DNA of 64,000 nucleotides, taken from NCBI GenBank assembly GCA_016871315.1, contig VFZE01000030.1, positions 1-64,000 of the forward strand. The letters are read 5' to 3'. This document shows positions 27,882-57,896 of the stretch, in pieces. The translations under genes and the position numbers were made by a program. The stretch comes from Acidimicrobiia bacterium. Lineage in GTDB: Bacteria > Acidobacteriota > Terriglobia > Bryobacterales > Bryobacteraceae. How positions within the stretch are numbered: the stretch's first letter is position 1; the number at the start of each line of letters is the position of its first letter. Below the pieces are notes generated by a model. That model saw nothing but the letters and a program-made list of their open reading frames with translations. It was not told the DNA's origin and made no database searches.

Positions 27882-29420
27882 CTAAGTGGCGATGTTGGTG
27901 AGCGTCCGGGATGCCATGCCGGGTACTTGCAGGTCAGGCATGGGGTGTGCGCGGAACAGGCGGAGGCAGATGAGACCGGTCCAGCGGGCCCAGCGGTTGG
28001 CGCTCTTGCGGCGCGCGCTGTCGGTGGCGATGCCGGTGTTGGCGTACATCTGGCGGTAGAGTTTCGAGATGAAGACGAAGGCGAGGCGCGCCTTGACCGA
28101 CTTGACGCATTTGGCGCGGCGCCAGATCTCGGAAAGCTGATAGTAGCTGTCCCAGACGCCTTGCGTGCGGACGCGGATCTCTTCCGAACTCATGCTCGGG
28201 TGGGGCATGTAGAGTTTTGGCCGGCGGTGTCCGGGAATGAGCCAGTAGCGGGTGATGGGAATGCCGTCCACCTTTTCGACATTGCCGGCGGTGGTCTTTT
28301 CCCACTTCTCGAAATCGACGGTGCCGGGGAAGGGCGTCATCATGACGAACTGGGCGAAGGTGAGATCGGCGCGCTTGGCCAGGTCGGCGGTGGCGTCGAA
28401 GGTCTCCTTGCGGTCCGTGGAGAGGCCGAAGATGAAGGAGCCGAGGACATGCACGCCGTGGCTTTTGAAAAGGCGCAGGCGTTCGACGAGCTGTTCGCCG
28501 GCGAGGTTGAAATCCTTGAAAACGGATTTGAGTCCTTCCGGAGTGACGGCCTCGACGCCGACGAGCGCGCCTTTGATGCGCGCCTTGTTCATGGCTTCGA
28601 GAAAAGCGGTGTCCTCGGCGGCTTCCATGGTGATCTGGGTGAAGAGGATGGTGTCGGGTGGAAGCTGCGCAAGGCGCTCCATGAATTCGAAGCGTTCGGC
28701 GCGGAGGTTTTTCAGTTCGGCGACGCGGGCGGCGTTGTTCTGGCGCTCGGCGAGTGCGATGTCGGCGAGGGTGACGGGATAGAAGTTGTCGTCGGCGAGG
28801 GCGATGAAGCGGTAGCCTAGGCGGCGCAGCTGGACAATTTCCTCGATGACGGCGTCGGAGGAGCGCTGGCGGGGCTGCTGGCCGTCGGTGCGCCAGACGG
28901 AGCAGAAGGAGCAGTGCTTGGGGCAGCCGCGGACGGTCTGCACGGAGGCCCACATGTAGCTGTCGGGCGGAAGCAGATCCCAGCGGGCGGGCAGGAAGCG
29001 TCCGGCGTTGACGCGTCCTCCGTCGTAGAGCGGCTGCGAGTTTCCGGCGGCGATGTCGGCGAGAACCTGGCCCCAGACCTCGTCGCCGTCACCCTTGACG
29101 ACGGCGTGTGCGGCGCCATGTTCGAGCGCTTCGTTCGGGTAGAGAGTGGCGTGGATGCCGCCGAAGACGACAGTGGCTCCCCGCGCGCGCGCCAGTCGGC
29201 CGACTTCAAAACCGCGCAGCGCGTTGGCGGTGTGGATGCCGATGCCGACGACGTCGCCGGGCTGAATATGTTCTGGCTGGATGGGTTCCAGTGTTTCATC
29301 CACGATGACCGGATCGCCGTATTGGGCGGGCGTTGCGGCGGCAAGCACGTAGAGCCAGCGGGGCGTAATGACGCCAACGCCGAAAGCGACATCGCTCGGG
29401 TTCACCAGGAATACACGCAT
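27882..29420 (-). CDS. B12-binding-domain radical SAM protein
   Basis: About 512 residues. The N-terminal 150 residues are a cobalamin-binding Rossmann domain (MRVFLVNPSDVAFGVG, then GATVVFGGIHATLYP). The radical SAM barrel carries CPKHCSFC for the 4Fe-4S cluster near residue 183, with HVLGSFIFGLSTDRKETF downstream. Class B enzymes of this type methylate unreactive carbons or rearrange hopanoids; the closest look is to HpnJ-like and general B12-SAM enzymes. The ATG at 29420 has GGAG seven bases upstream. The substrate is unknown. Confidence 0.85.
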   Translation of the reverse strand: MRVFLVNPSDVAFGVGVITPRWLYVLAAATPAQYGDPVIVDETLEPIQPEHIQPGDVVGIGIHTANALRGFEVGRLARARGATVVFGGIHATLYPNEALEHGAAHAVVKGDGDEVWGQVLADIAAGNSQPLYDGGRVNAGRFLPARWDLLPPDSYMWASVQTVRGCPKHCSFCSVWRTDGQQPRQRSSDAVIEEIVQLRRLGYRFIALADDNFYPVTLADIALAERQNNAARVAELKNLRAERFEFMERLAQLPPDTILFTQITMEAAEDTAFLEAMNKARIKGALVGVEAVTPEGLKSVFKDFNLAGEQLVERLRLFKSHGVHVLGSFIFGLSTDRKETFDATADLAKRADLTFAQFVMMTPFPGTVDFEKWEKTTAGNVEKVDGIPITRYWLIPGHRRPKLYMPHPSMSSEEIRVRTQGVWDSYYQLSEIWRRAKCVKSVKARLAFVFISKLYRQMYANTGIATDSARRKSANRWARWTGLICLRLFRAHPMPDLQVPGMASRTLTNIAT

Positions 29421-29514
29421 CAGGTTCTCCTTCGGAAGCCGCCGGATCTTTAGGTGAGGCAAGAAGGGGGCTCATGTGATTGTACCTGTAACAGGTGTCA
29501 CGTGGTGCGACCGG

Positions 29515-55655: not shown

Positions 55656-55799
55656 ACGATGCCCAAACCAGCAGTTTAATTCATTTGCATAGGCTTAGCC
55701 CGCTTGGTTGACTAAAATGAACAACTTGAGAGCTGTGTATCCGCGCGTTGGACGCCCCCCAGGGCAGCCGGATAACAAAAACCAGGAGTCATTGAGACA

Positions 55800-57896
55800 A
55801 TGCACAAGCCAATCAAGTACGTGGAGAAGGTGCTTACGTACGGCGCCCGCGGCGCCTGGGTCGTCTTCGACAGTCTGAACCAAATCCGCCAGAACCCTGG
55901 CTTCACGCCGAGATGGTCCGACAAGCCCTTGCTGAAATCCTGGGAAAAGACCAAACCCCCACTGGGCTGGCCCCGCACCACCGATTCGCTTTGCCCCAAG
56001 TGCGTCCAGGAAGCCCGCAAACAAATCCTCGACGGAGAAAAGGACTACCTGGTTCTGCTCGATGAGAAGGTCGGCGAAATCAAGGCCCAGATCATCGAGC
56101 GCGACGGCAAGATCCTGATGGTCAAGGACTGCCCCAAGCACGGCCACTTTGAAGACGTCATGGCCATTGACCCGGCCTTCTTCAAGCACCTCGAAGAAGT
56201 CTTCCCCGGCCGCGACATCCGCGCCCACAACGACGAAAAGCTACACAACCACGGCAGCTCCACCATTACTCACGGCCGCGGCTCCGTGCTCACCATCGAC
56301 CTCACCAACCGCTGCAACATGATGTGCGACCCCTGCTTCATGGATGCCAACCAGGTGGGCTTTGTGCATGAGCTGAGCTGGGAAGACATCAAGACGCTGC
56401 TCGACAACGCCATCTCGATCAAGCCGAAGCGCAAGATGAGCGTCCAGTTCTCCGGCGGCGAGCCGACGCTTTCCCCCTACTTCCTCGACGCCGTGCGCTA
56501 CGCGCGCAAGGTCGGCTACGACAGCGTGCAGGCAGCGACCAACGGCATCGAGTTCGCCAAGAGCCCCGAGTTCTGCCGCCAGGCCGCCGAGGCCGGTCTC
56601 CGCTATGCCTATCTCCAGTTCGACGGCATCGGCAATGAAGCCAACTCGCACCGCGCCGTCGGCAACCTGTTCGACGTGAAGATGCGCGCTATTGAGAATT
56701 TGCACTCGAACGGCATCGATATCGTTCCGGTTATCACCATCGTCAACGGCATCAACAACGAGCAGGTTGGCCACGTCATTCAGTTCGCGCTCGACAACCC
56801 CAAGCGCATCCCGTTCCTCAGCTTCCAACCTGTCAGCTTCACCGGCCGTGACGAAGACGTCACGCCGGAGCGCCGCGCCGCCCAGCGCTACACGCTGAGC
56901 CACCTGGCGCACGACGTCAAGAACCAGGTCGGCCTCGGTGAGCCGACGCGCGACTGGTTTCCGATTTCGTTCATCTCTACCTTCTCTGACTGGGCCGACC
57001 TGGTGCATGGTCCTCAGGAGTCGTGGGGCCACCTGAGCTGCGGCTGCCACCCCAATTGCGGCGTCGGCATGGCCGTCATGGTGGACAAGGAAACCAAGGA
57101 AGCCGTTCCCGTCACCGCCTTCCTGAACGGCGACCGTCTGGCCAAGGACATCGCCCGCGTCAACGACGCCGCCCGCGGCAGGTTCCTGTCGGTAATGGGC
57201 ATGGCACTGGCGCTGATGCGCAACTATGATCCGTTCCAGTCGCCCACGCATTTCAAGCTGGTCGACCTGATGAAGAAGTTCGACAAGACCTTCGGCGCCA
57301 CCGGCAAGAGCTACGGCAGGGTGAGCGGCGAGACGCGCCTCCAGGACATCGAAGTCCGGCGCTCCGACCGGTGGAACTTCCTGTTCATCGCCGGCATGTG
57401 GTTCCAGGACCTGTTCAACTACGATTTCCGACGCACCGAGCAGTGCATCATCCCCTACGCCACGCAGGAAGGCGAAATCAGCTTCTGCGCCTACAACACC
57501 GGCATCGGCTGGCGCAACATCATCGAGAAAATGCACATGACGGCCACGCTCACCAAGTGGTATGACGAGCACGGCCGCCATGAGATCTTCGCCGGCGGCA
57601 AGGACGTCAACCTGCGCTCGAAAGACCACTCGATGAAGCTGAACGCCGAGCACGTGGCGCACCGCCGCCAGACGGATCTGGACGAACTCGGCATCGCCAA
57701 GAACGCCCGCGAGGAGAAGATCCGCCAACGCGATCTGAAGCTGAAGCTCCAGCAGGACGCCGAGAACAAGCGGATGGCCAAGCTGTACCGCGAAGTGGTG
57801 CTGAAGGAGCAGAAGCAGGAAGGCTTCGTATCGCTCGATAGCCTCACCCCGGCCAAGCCCGCCGCCGCCGAAGAAGTCGGCAGCTTCGGCGATTAG
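55800..57896 (+). CDS. Radical SAM protein of the Tes (tetraether lipid synthase)-like family
   Basis: 698 residues. The N-terminus has the family's extra cluster region: SLCPKCV near residue 64 and VKDCPKHGHFEDV. The radical SAM core holds CNMMCDPCF (Cys172, Cys176, Cys179), a GGEPTLSP strand and, in the C-terminal part, CGCHPNCGVG. MJ0619-type proteins with this architecture include Tes, which joins lipid tails into membrane-spanning lipids, and a pterin methyltransferase. In Acidobacteriota a role in iso-diabolic acid or branched GDGT lipids is suspected. A charged coiled coil (about 600-670) and an Ala/Pro tail end the protein. Confidence 0.78.
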   Translation: MHKPIKYVEKVLTYGARGAWVVFDSLNQIRQNPGFTPRWSDKPLLKSWEKTKPPLGWPRTTDSLCPKCVQEARKQILDGEKDYLVLLDEKVGEIKAQIIERDGKILMVKDCPKHGHFEDVMAIDPAFFKHLEEVFPGRDIRAHNDEKLHNHGSSTITHGRGSVLTIDLTNRCNMMCDPCFMDANQVGFVHELSWEDIKTLLDNAISIKPKRKMSVQFSGGEPTLSPYFLDAVRYARKVGYDSVQAATNGIEFAKSPEFCRQAAEAGLRYAYLQFDGIGNEANSHRAVGNLFDVKMRAIENLHSNGIDIVPVITIVNGINNEQVGHVIQFALDNPKRIPFLSFQPVSFTGRDEDVTPERRAAQRYTLSHLAHDVKNQVGLGEPTRDWFPISFISTFSDWADLVHGPQESWGHLSCGCHPNCGVGMAVMVDKETKEAVPVTAFLNGDRLAKDIARVNDAARGRFLSVMGMALALMRNYDPFQSPTHFKLVDLMKKFDKTFGATGKSYGRVSGETRLQDIEVRRSDRWNFLFIAGMWFQDLFNYDFRRTEQCIIPYATQEGEISFCAYNTGIGWRNIIEKMHMTATLTKWYDEHGRHEIFAGGKDVNLRSKDHSMKLNAEHVAHRRQTDLDELGIAKNAREEKIRQRDLKLKLQQDAENKRMAKLYREVVLKEQKQEGFVSLDSLTPAKPAAAEEVGSFGD

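Follow-up and report, generated by a model that had tools for sequence, protein, structure and literature searches.

Soil and lake temperature proxies in wide use rest on branched tetraether lipids, and no enzyme has been proven to make these lipids, or the iso-diabolic acid from which they are built, in Acidobacteriota. The locus described here raises the question of whether a single radical SAM protein could be such an enzyme. Iso-diabolic acid has been reported for subdivisions 1, 3, 4 and 6 (PMC13274423); it makes up 11.8-30.4% of the fatty acids of the six strains tabulated for Edaphobacter (PMC11354219), is given as 26.8-49.2% in the five columns, including Terracidiphilus gabretensis, of an Occallatibacter-clade table (PMC12935467), is described as a primary fatty acid of Chloracidobacterium (PMC12816986), and is contained in Pyrinomonas (PMC4644332). 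Homologs of the archaeal tetraether synthase (Tes) with 42% and 40% identity were reported for Koribacter and Solibacter, respectively (PMC8941075), and Halamka et al. proposed that S. usitatus condenses diethers by one or both of its Tes homologs (PMC10087280). The general idea of Tes-like membrane-spanning lipid synthesis in Acidobacteriota is already published as a hypothesis (PMC8941075, PMC10087280). As far as the literature searched shows, what is new here is a distinct clade that lacks one iron-sulfur cluster and is nearly mutually exclusive with orthodox Tes, together with its association with oxidase genes and a sister clade linked to Lpx genes.

The window, that is, the whole stretch of 64,000 nucleotides that was analysed, contains the gene in question, for which the original prediction had named an acidobacterial Tes-like radical SAM enzyme as a candidate for membrane-spanning lipid synthesis. 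The gene and its likely start signal are as follows.

55800..57896, plus strand: class A Tes-like radical SAM enzyme of 698 aa, proposed iso-diabolic acid synthase (ORF, profile and structure matches)
55784..55788, plus strand: likely ribosome-binding site AGGAG, 11 nt before the ATG (read from the sequence)

The ORF (55800-57896, plus strand) is intact, with 698 codons and an ATG start, and it is real and conserved. Its product matches Radical_SAM (PF04055) with 74.1 bits in Pfam, above the cutoff of 29.5, and carries the CxxxCxxC motif as C172, C176 and C179, which places it in the radical SAM superfamily; a further match to the HMPTM N-terminal zinc ribbon (PF23545; 52.6 bits in Pfam, cutoff 27) assigns it to the MJ0619-type family, formerly known as class D methylases. 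The best NCBIfam match is Tes (NF045702; 314.9 bits, 8e-94, residues 61-580), below the curated equivalog cutoff of 450 bits, and the TrsS model (NF045646) gives 207.3 bits against a cutoff of 490, so that the Tes score exceeds the TrsS score (315 vs 207) with neither threshold reached. The closest solved structures are those of MJ0619 (PDB 7tol/7tom, E 9e-63). The description as Tes-like is borne out, and an orthodox Tes it is not. Among 591 related loci the best 80 are all acidobacterial, many of them labelled Bryobacterales or Bryobacteraceae, and the highest identity to the window protein (90%) is found in a MAG labelled only Acidobacteria, which supports the acidobacterial origin that had been proposed. 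Within its own genome, a 6.2 Mb draft that is 98% complete, this is the single Tes-family gene found; no orthodox Tes was detected elsewhere in that draft, where the second-best NF045702 match reaches 62 bits.

The Pfam name HMPTM of the N-terminal domain could be taken to point to a class D radical SAM methylase acting on a pterin or another small molecule, a reading that we hold to be highly improbable. According to PMC9433317, MJ0619 itself was first annotated as a pterin-type methylase, an annotation that was not reproduced and was replaced by the coupling of lipid tails; the domain name retains the old label, and the Tes active-site residues are conserved in the window protein. The original prediction had assumed a separate pterin methyltransferase branch, grouping with which would have counted against a role in lipid synthesis; this test is void because the annotation belonged to MJ0619 and was uncorroborated (PMC9433317).

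The metal sites were compared by alignment to MJ0619. The alignment took in 122 rows of class A, of which 116 are distinct sequences and three repeat the window gene, together with 8 rows of A' and 11 each of B and C. The classes were cut by identity to the window protein; class C comprises the orthodox acidobacterial Tes. The sites are placed as follows.

55992..56141, plus strand: rubredoxin-type metal site C65-X2-C68-X42-C111-X2-H114 (Pfam, alignment to MJ0619)
56238..56273, plus strand: residues 147-158, where the [Fe4S4]N cluster is missing (alignment)
56313..56336, plus strand: radical SAM motif C172-X3-C176-X2-C179 (Pfam, alignment)
57039..57059, plus strand: C414-G-C416-H-P-N-C420, in which two extra cysteines precede C420, the first [Fe4S4]C ligand (alignment)
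57396..57488, plus strand: remaining [Fe4S4]C residues, M533 (labile Met439), C549, Y553 (Tyr459) and C563 (alignment)

Like MJ0619, the window protein has a rubredoxin-type site, a radical-SAM cluster, a C-terminal [4Fe-4S] site with a labile Met, the catalytic Tyr and the SAM-contact residues. The CxHG motif noted in the original prediction proved to be part of the first of these (CPKC...CPKHG), with C65, C68, C111 and H114 aligning with MJ0619 C9, C12, C33 and H36; all rows of A', B and C have these ligands, as do at least 121 of the 122 rows of class A, and the loop between them is 22 residues longer than in MJ0619. The radical-SAM cysteines are invariant in the aligned rows, as are, in all of them, the [Fe4S4]C ligands C338 (C420 of the window protein), C455 and C470 together with Met439 and Tyr459. 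Gly145, Tyr195, Asp199, Val236, Gln268 and Arg275 (MJ0619 numbering) are likewise invariant, and variation is seen at Thr238 (three A rows), Thr273 (one B row) and Ser271 (8/11 C rows); all SAM-contact residues of MJ0619 that are named in PMC9433317 are kept in the window protein.

The main departure from MJ0619 lies in the N-terminal cluster. The original prediction had seen an extra N-terminal cysteine cluster, which as the [Fe4S4]N site of Tes is not there: in the translation of the window protein no cysteine occurs between C111 and C172, and the ligand columns in the alignment to MJ0619 hold a gap, H, S and T. Of the ligands, C73, C77, C80 and the His after them, none is present in any of the 122 A, 8 A' and 11 B rows, and all are kept in 11/11 class C rows. 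In their place stands HxHG(S/T)S (residues 149-154), near-invariant in A, A' and B, and C414 and C416 are invariant in the same three classes and present in only about half of C. The window protein accordingly has one CxxxCxxC motif, as opposed to the two counted for archaeal Tes (PMC8941075). A single, unique loss of the cluster is not claimed, since three of five distant outgroup proteins also show, by motif, a single CxxxCxxC; for that reason the [Fe4S4]N cluster is not universal outside the A/A'/B clade either. No paper on loss of this cluster in bacterial homologs was found by title or abstract opening, which is weak evidence given that the search was scarcely aimed there.

The position of the protein in the family was addressed with two trees in which MJ0619 was the only proven Tes and the bacterial Tes were all acidobacterial. 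The careful tree, by maximum likelihood, holds 32 rows (8/122 A, 4/8 A', 4/11 B and 4/5 outgroup rows among them). In it, A, A' and B make up a single clade (100/100) that sits inside class C (inner fork 100/100), and MJ0619 and the TrsS-like plasmid proteins fall on the other side of the tree (100/98), where long outgroup branches make the order unsure. The same A/A'/B clade was recovered in a quick tree of 66 rows, for which 30 of the 122 class A rows were taken; two loci binned as B by identity (L133 and L144) lie outside the B clade in that tree and were counted with A' for the analysis of Lpx neighbours. Of the phylogeny suggested in the original prediction, the part that concerns Tes has the window protein nesting inside acidobacterial Tes, and the part that concerns the pterin branch fell away, there being no such separate branch to group with. 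Profile scores follow the same division. The four class C proteins scanned against NF045702 score 474-570 bits and all pass the cutoff, none of the six A/A'/B proteins scanned does so with their 291-348 bits, and the two outgroup proteins scanned have a TrsS score above their Tes score, the reverse of the window protein. Identity to MJ0619 is 29.6-33.0% for class A rows and 36.9-45.2% for class C rows, the window protein being 30.9% identical over 479 aligned residues.

An AlphaFold2 model of the window protein, built on an alignment of 68 of the 70 listed sequences (two of class A were left out), reached a pLDDT of 91.1 and a pTM of 0.89. Its best VIA-align match is 7tom (Z 43.7, rmsd 2.3, 477 residues), the next other protein being MoaA with Z 20.8, and Foldseek agrees (TM 0.87 on the target). 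On this model, the protein can be predicted with high confidence to adopt the fold of the archaeal tetraether synthase MJ0619, the likeness to Tes/GDGT-MAS extending over residues 57-594. Residues 1-56 and those beyond 594 lie outside the structural match and form the following added pieces.

55800..55967, plus strand: N-terminal extension, residues 1-56, absent from MJ0619 (model, alignment)
55809-55880, plus strand: amphipathic helix, residues 4-27, in the N-terminal extension (hydrophobic moment)
57582..57893, plus strand: C-terminal extension, residues 595-698 (model, alignment)
57705-57800, plus strand: C-terminal helix, residues 636-667 (model)

The N-terminal extension of about 56 residues is conserved and had been missed in the original prediction; its helix 4-27 has a hydrophobic moment of 0.50, a value reached by 5 of 5000 shuffles. 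The long charged C-terminal extension that had been noted is real (MJ0619 after native residue 490 lies outside the alignment used for it), and within it the stretch 631-670 is conserved in the class A subfamily only (M659 98%, L662 98%, Y663 96%, L668 98%). A membrane anchor formed by the charged C-terminal helix was considered and rejected, the helix not being amphipathic (moment 0.16, reached by 2994/5000 shuffles).

Fold, active-site conservation, tree position and distribution together support the candidacy for membrane-spanning lipid synthesis. By analogy with MJ0619, class A is probably the iso-diabolic acid synthase of (mostly aerobic) Acidobacteriota, coupling two iso-C15 tails. The substrate would be two iso-C15 acyl tails on two membrane phospholipids, joined at their terminal (omega) ends to give one membrane-spanning dicarboxylic chain. 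With the MJ0619 reaction as template (PMC9433317), the radical-SAM cluster would cleave SAM to a 5'-deoxyadenosyl radical, which would abstract a hydrogen from one inert tail end, and the resulting carbon radical would be held through a C-S bond to the C-terminal [4Fe-4S] cluster, with Met533 as the labile ligand, until a second SAM cleavage yields a second tail radical whose attack would form the C-C bond. Since the protein lacks the N-terminal [4Fe-4S] cluster, we infer that electrons would be fed by the rubredoxin-type iron alone. The amphipathic helix at the N-terminus may keep the enzyme at the membrane face, and the product would stay ester-linked unless a separate ester-to-ether enzyme is present. 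A comparable alkyl-chain coupling has been proposed for Mss (Bacillota and others), which is described as sharing the conserved catalytic architecture of Tes (PMC13274423). One counter-signal to this best explanation is the loss of the N-terminal cluster, which could mean a changed reaction. It is tempting, if doubtful, to view A, A' and B as an oxygen-adapted tetraether-type synthase that shed its surface auxiliary [4Fe-4S] cluster, on the branch from which the three classes descend, when Acidobacteriota became aerobic, and that has HxHG(S/T)S and the extra cysteines instead. If the cluster was lost and the presumed chemistry kept, this would bear on the role of the cluster in Tes.

The distribution of the family was examined in 247 Acidobacteriota genomes, 141 of which have a Tes-family match at 1e-60 and 28 a match that passes the NF045702 cutoff. 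As read off the match tables, class A occurs in 95 genomes (two of them, G080 and G140, with fragments only), A' in 15 and class C in 28, so that A or A' is present in 110/247. Class A was found in 27/27 genomes labelled as the same class or closer, the own genome included, a figure that rests on the listed matches and on taking the no-match list, whose first rows are all labelled "same phylum", as sorted by kinship. In each of the ten named genomes, whose completeness is not stated, a single NF045702 match was found at 1e-30, with a score (310-332 bits) of the size that class A gives; Acidipila rosea DSM 103428, strain ZG23-2 and MAGs of Terracidiphilus, Silvibacterium and Paludibaculum are among the ten. 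The lipid record includes E. aggregans, which produces both iso-diabolic acid and brGDGT (PMC13274423) and was reported to have one Tes homolog with 32% identity, measured against another archaeal Tes (PMC8941075). From its sequence identity, which lies within the class A range to MJ0619 despite the different reference, we infer that E. aggregans carries class A only. Should class A prove to be the synthase, a single gene that each of the 27 closest genomes in the sample carries would serve as marker and knock-out target.

Class A and orthodox Tes occur together in only three genomes, in one of which (G121; L156:4995-12231) the two genes lie about 3.4 kb apart on the same strand. A strong haem-copper terminal-oxidase match, defined by our own threshold of a best E below 1e-110, is present in 104/110 A/A' genomes, in 78/137 genomes without A or A', and in 13/25 genomes with orthodox Tes and no class A; the link is therefore loose in the other direction, and this statistic ignores kinship. 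Proteins with DUF2229, which, like BcrAD, we take to be a domain of PlsA/Ger-type enzymes, go with orthodox Tes (20/28 genomes vs 43/219 others) and are less frequent with class A (18/95 vs 45/152 others), again with kinship ignored, and all these co-occurrence patterns are suggestive only. They would predict ester-bound membrane-spanning lipids for organisms with class A, mostly without DUF2229 and nearly always with the oxidase, and ether-bound ones for organisms with orthodox Tes, often with DUF2229. At one locus (G203:C20:59513-64044), orthodox Tes and DUF2229 matches lie about 2.4 kb apart on the same strand; at another (L153:4236-6470), a CDP-alcohol phosphatidyltransferase gene stands 30 nt upstream of an orthodox Tes gene, also on the same strand.

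These counts also bear on the idea that class A is the tetraether (brGDGT) synthase proper, acting on PlsA/Ger-type ether lipids. The own genome does encode a 1187-aa BcrAD/DUF2229 protein, which might make ethers, and the control Thermotoga maritima, which has a modified PlsA (PMC8788747), also matches DUF2229; yet an acyl-CoA dehydratase activase is just as good a reading of the 1187-aa protein (TIGR00241 match), and the association with DUF2229 belongs to orthodox Tes and not to class A, leaving a tetraether synthase proper improbable. The immediate neighbourhood of class A was surveyed by clustering 90 loci by their neighbours. The commonest neighbour cluster, which holds queG, occurs in 19/90 loci at most, since it is chained together by ORFs in which QueG and TPR repeats are joined; the second (15 loci) consists of antisense ORFs over the class A gene itself, and each of the others occurs in eight loci or fewer; no known or recurrent lipid gene beside class A was seen among the ten cluster representatives scanned.

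A different neighbourhood was found for sister clade B, where lpxD is nearby in 12/21 loci and lpxB in 7/21. In nine of these loci (L132, 3799-6866; L134, L135, L136 and L181-L185), lpxD directly follows the clade B gene on the same strand, with gaps of 49-364 nt, measured between aligned segments and not gene ends; in the other three, lpxD is on the opposite strand. All nine same-strand cases share one family code (f28) and therefore represent conserved synteny in few lineages. LpxD, LpxA and LpxB were confirmed by Pfam in one locus (L127) and by tblastn in the others. The linkage points to acyl-chain chemistry within the clade, and coupling of lipid A tails by clade B is possible. Extended to class A, the same evidence would have it couple tails of another lipid, such as lipid A acyl chains, and leave iso-diabolic acid to Mss, a separate bacterial synthase with matches in 11/97 acidobacterial MAGs vs 17/97 for Tes (PMC11868695). 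The Lpx linkage is confined to clade B: neither lpxD nor lpxB was found in the 88 class A, 10 A' and 11 C loci searched, and lpxA matched in 1/88 class A loci; moreover, there is a single Tes-family gene in the own genome and in E. aggregans (PMC8941075). Lipid A as the class A substrate is consequently unlikely, and synthesis of iso-diabolic acid by class A is the reading that we prefer.

Other radical SAM proteins were encountered near and beyond the family. TrsS (NF045646) and the radical SAM proteins of haloarchaeal and Mycolicibacterium plasmids share the N-terminal Rd-type site as distant relatives, and the two TrsS-like proteins scanned, unlike the window protein, score higher as TrsS than as Tes. 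In three such plasmid loci (L167:696-2899, L168:774-2884 and L169:756-2956), a methyltransferase gene directly follows the TrsS/Tes-related radical SAM gene. Within the window itself, a second radical SAM protein of 526 aa is encoded at 27882-29462 on the minus strand, with sub-cutoff matches to a B12-binding domain, BchE, HpnJ and a lipid-biosynthesis B12/rSAM model.
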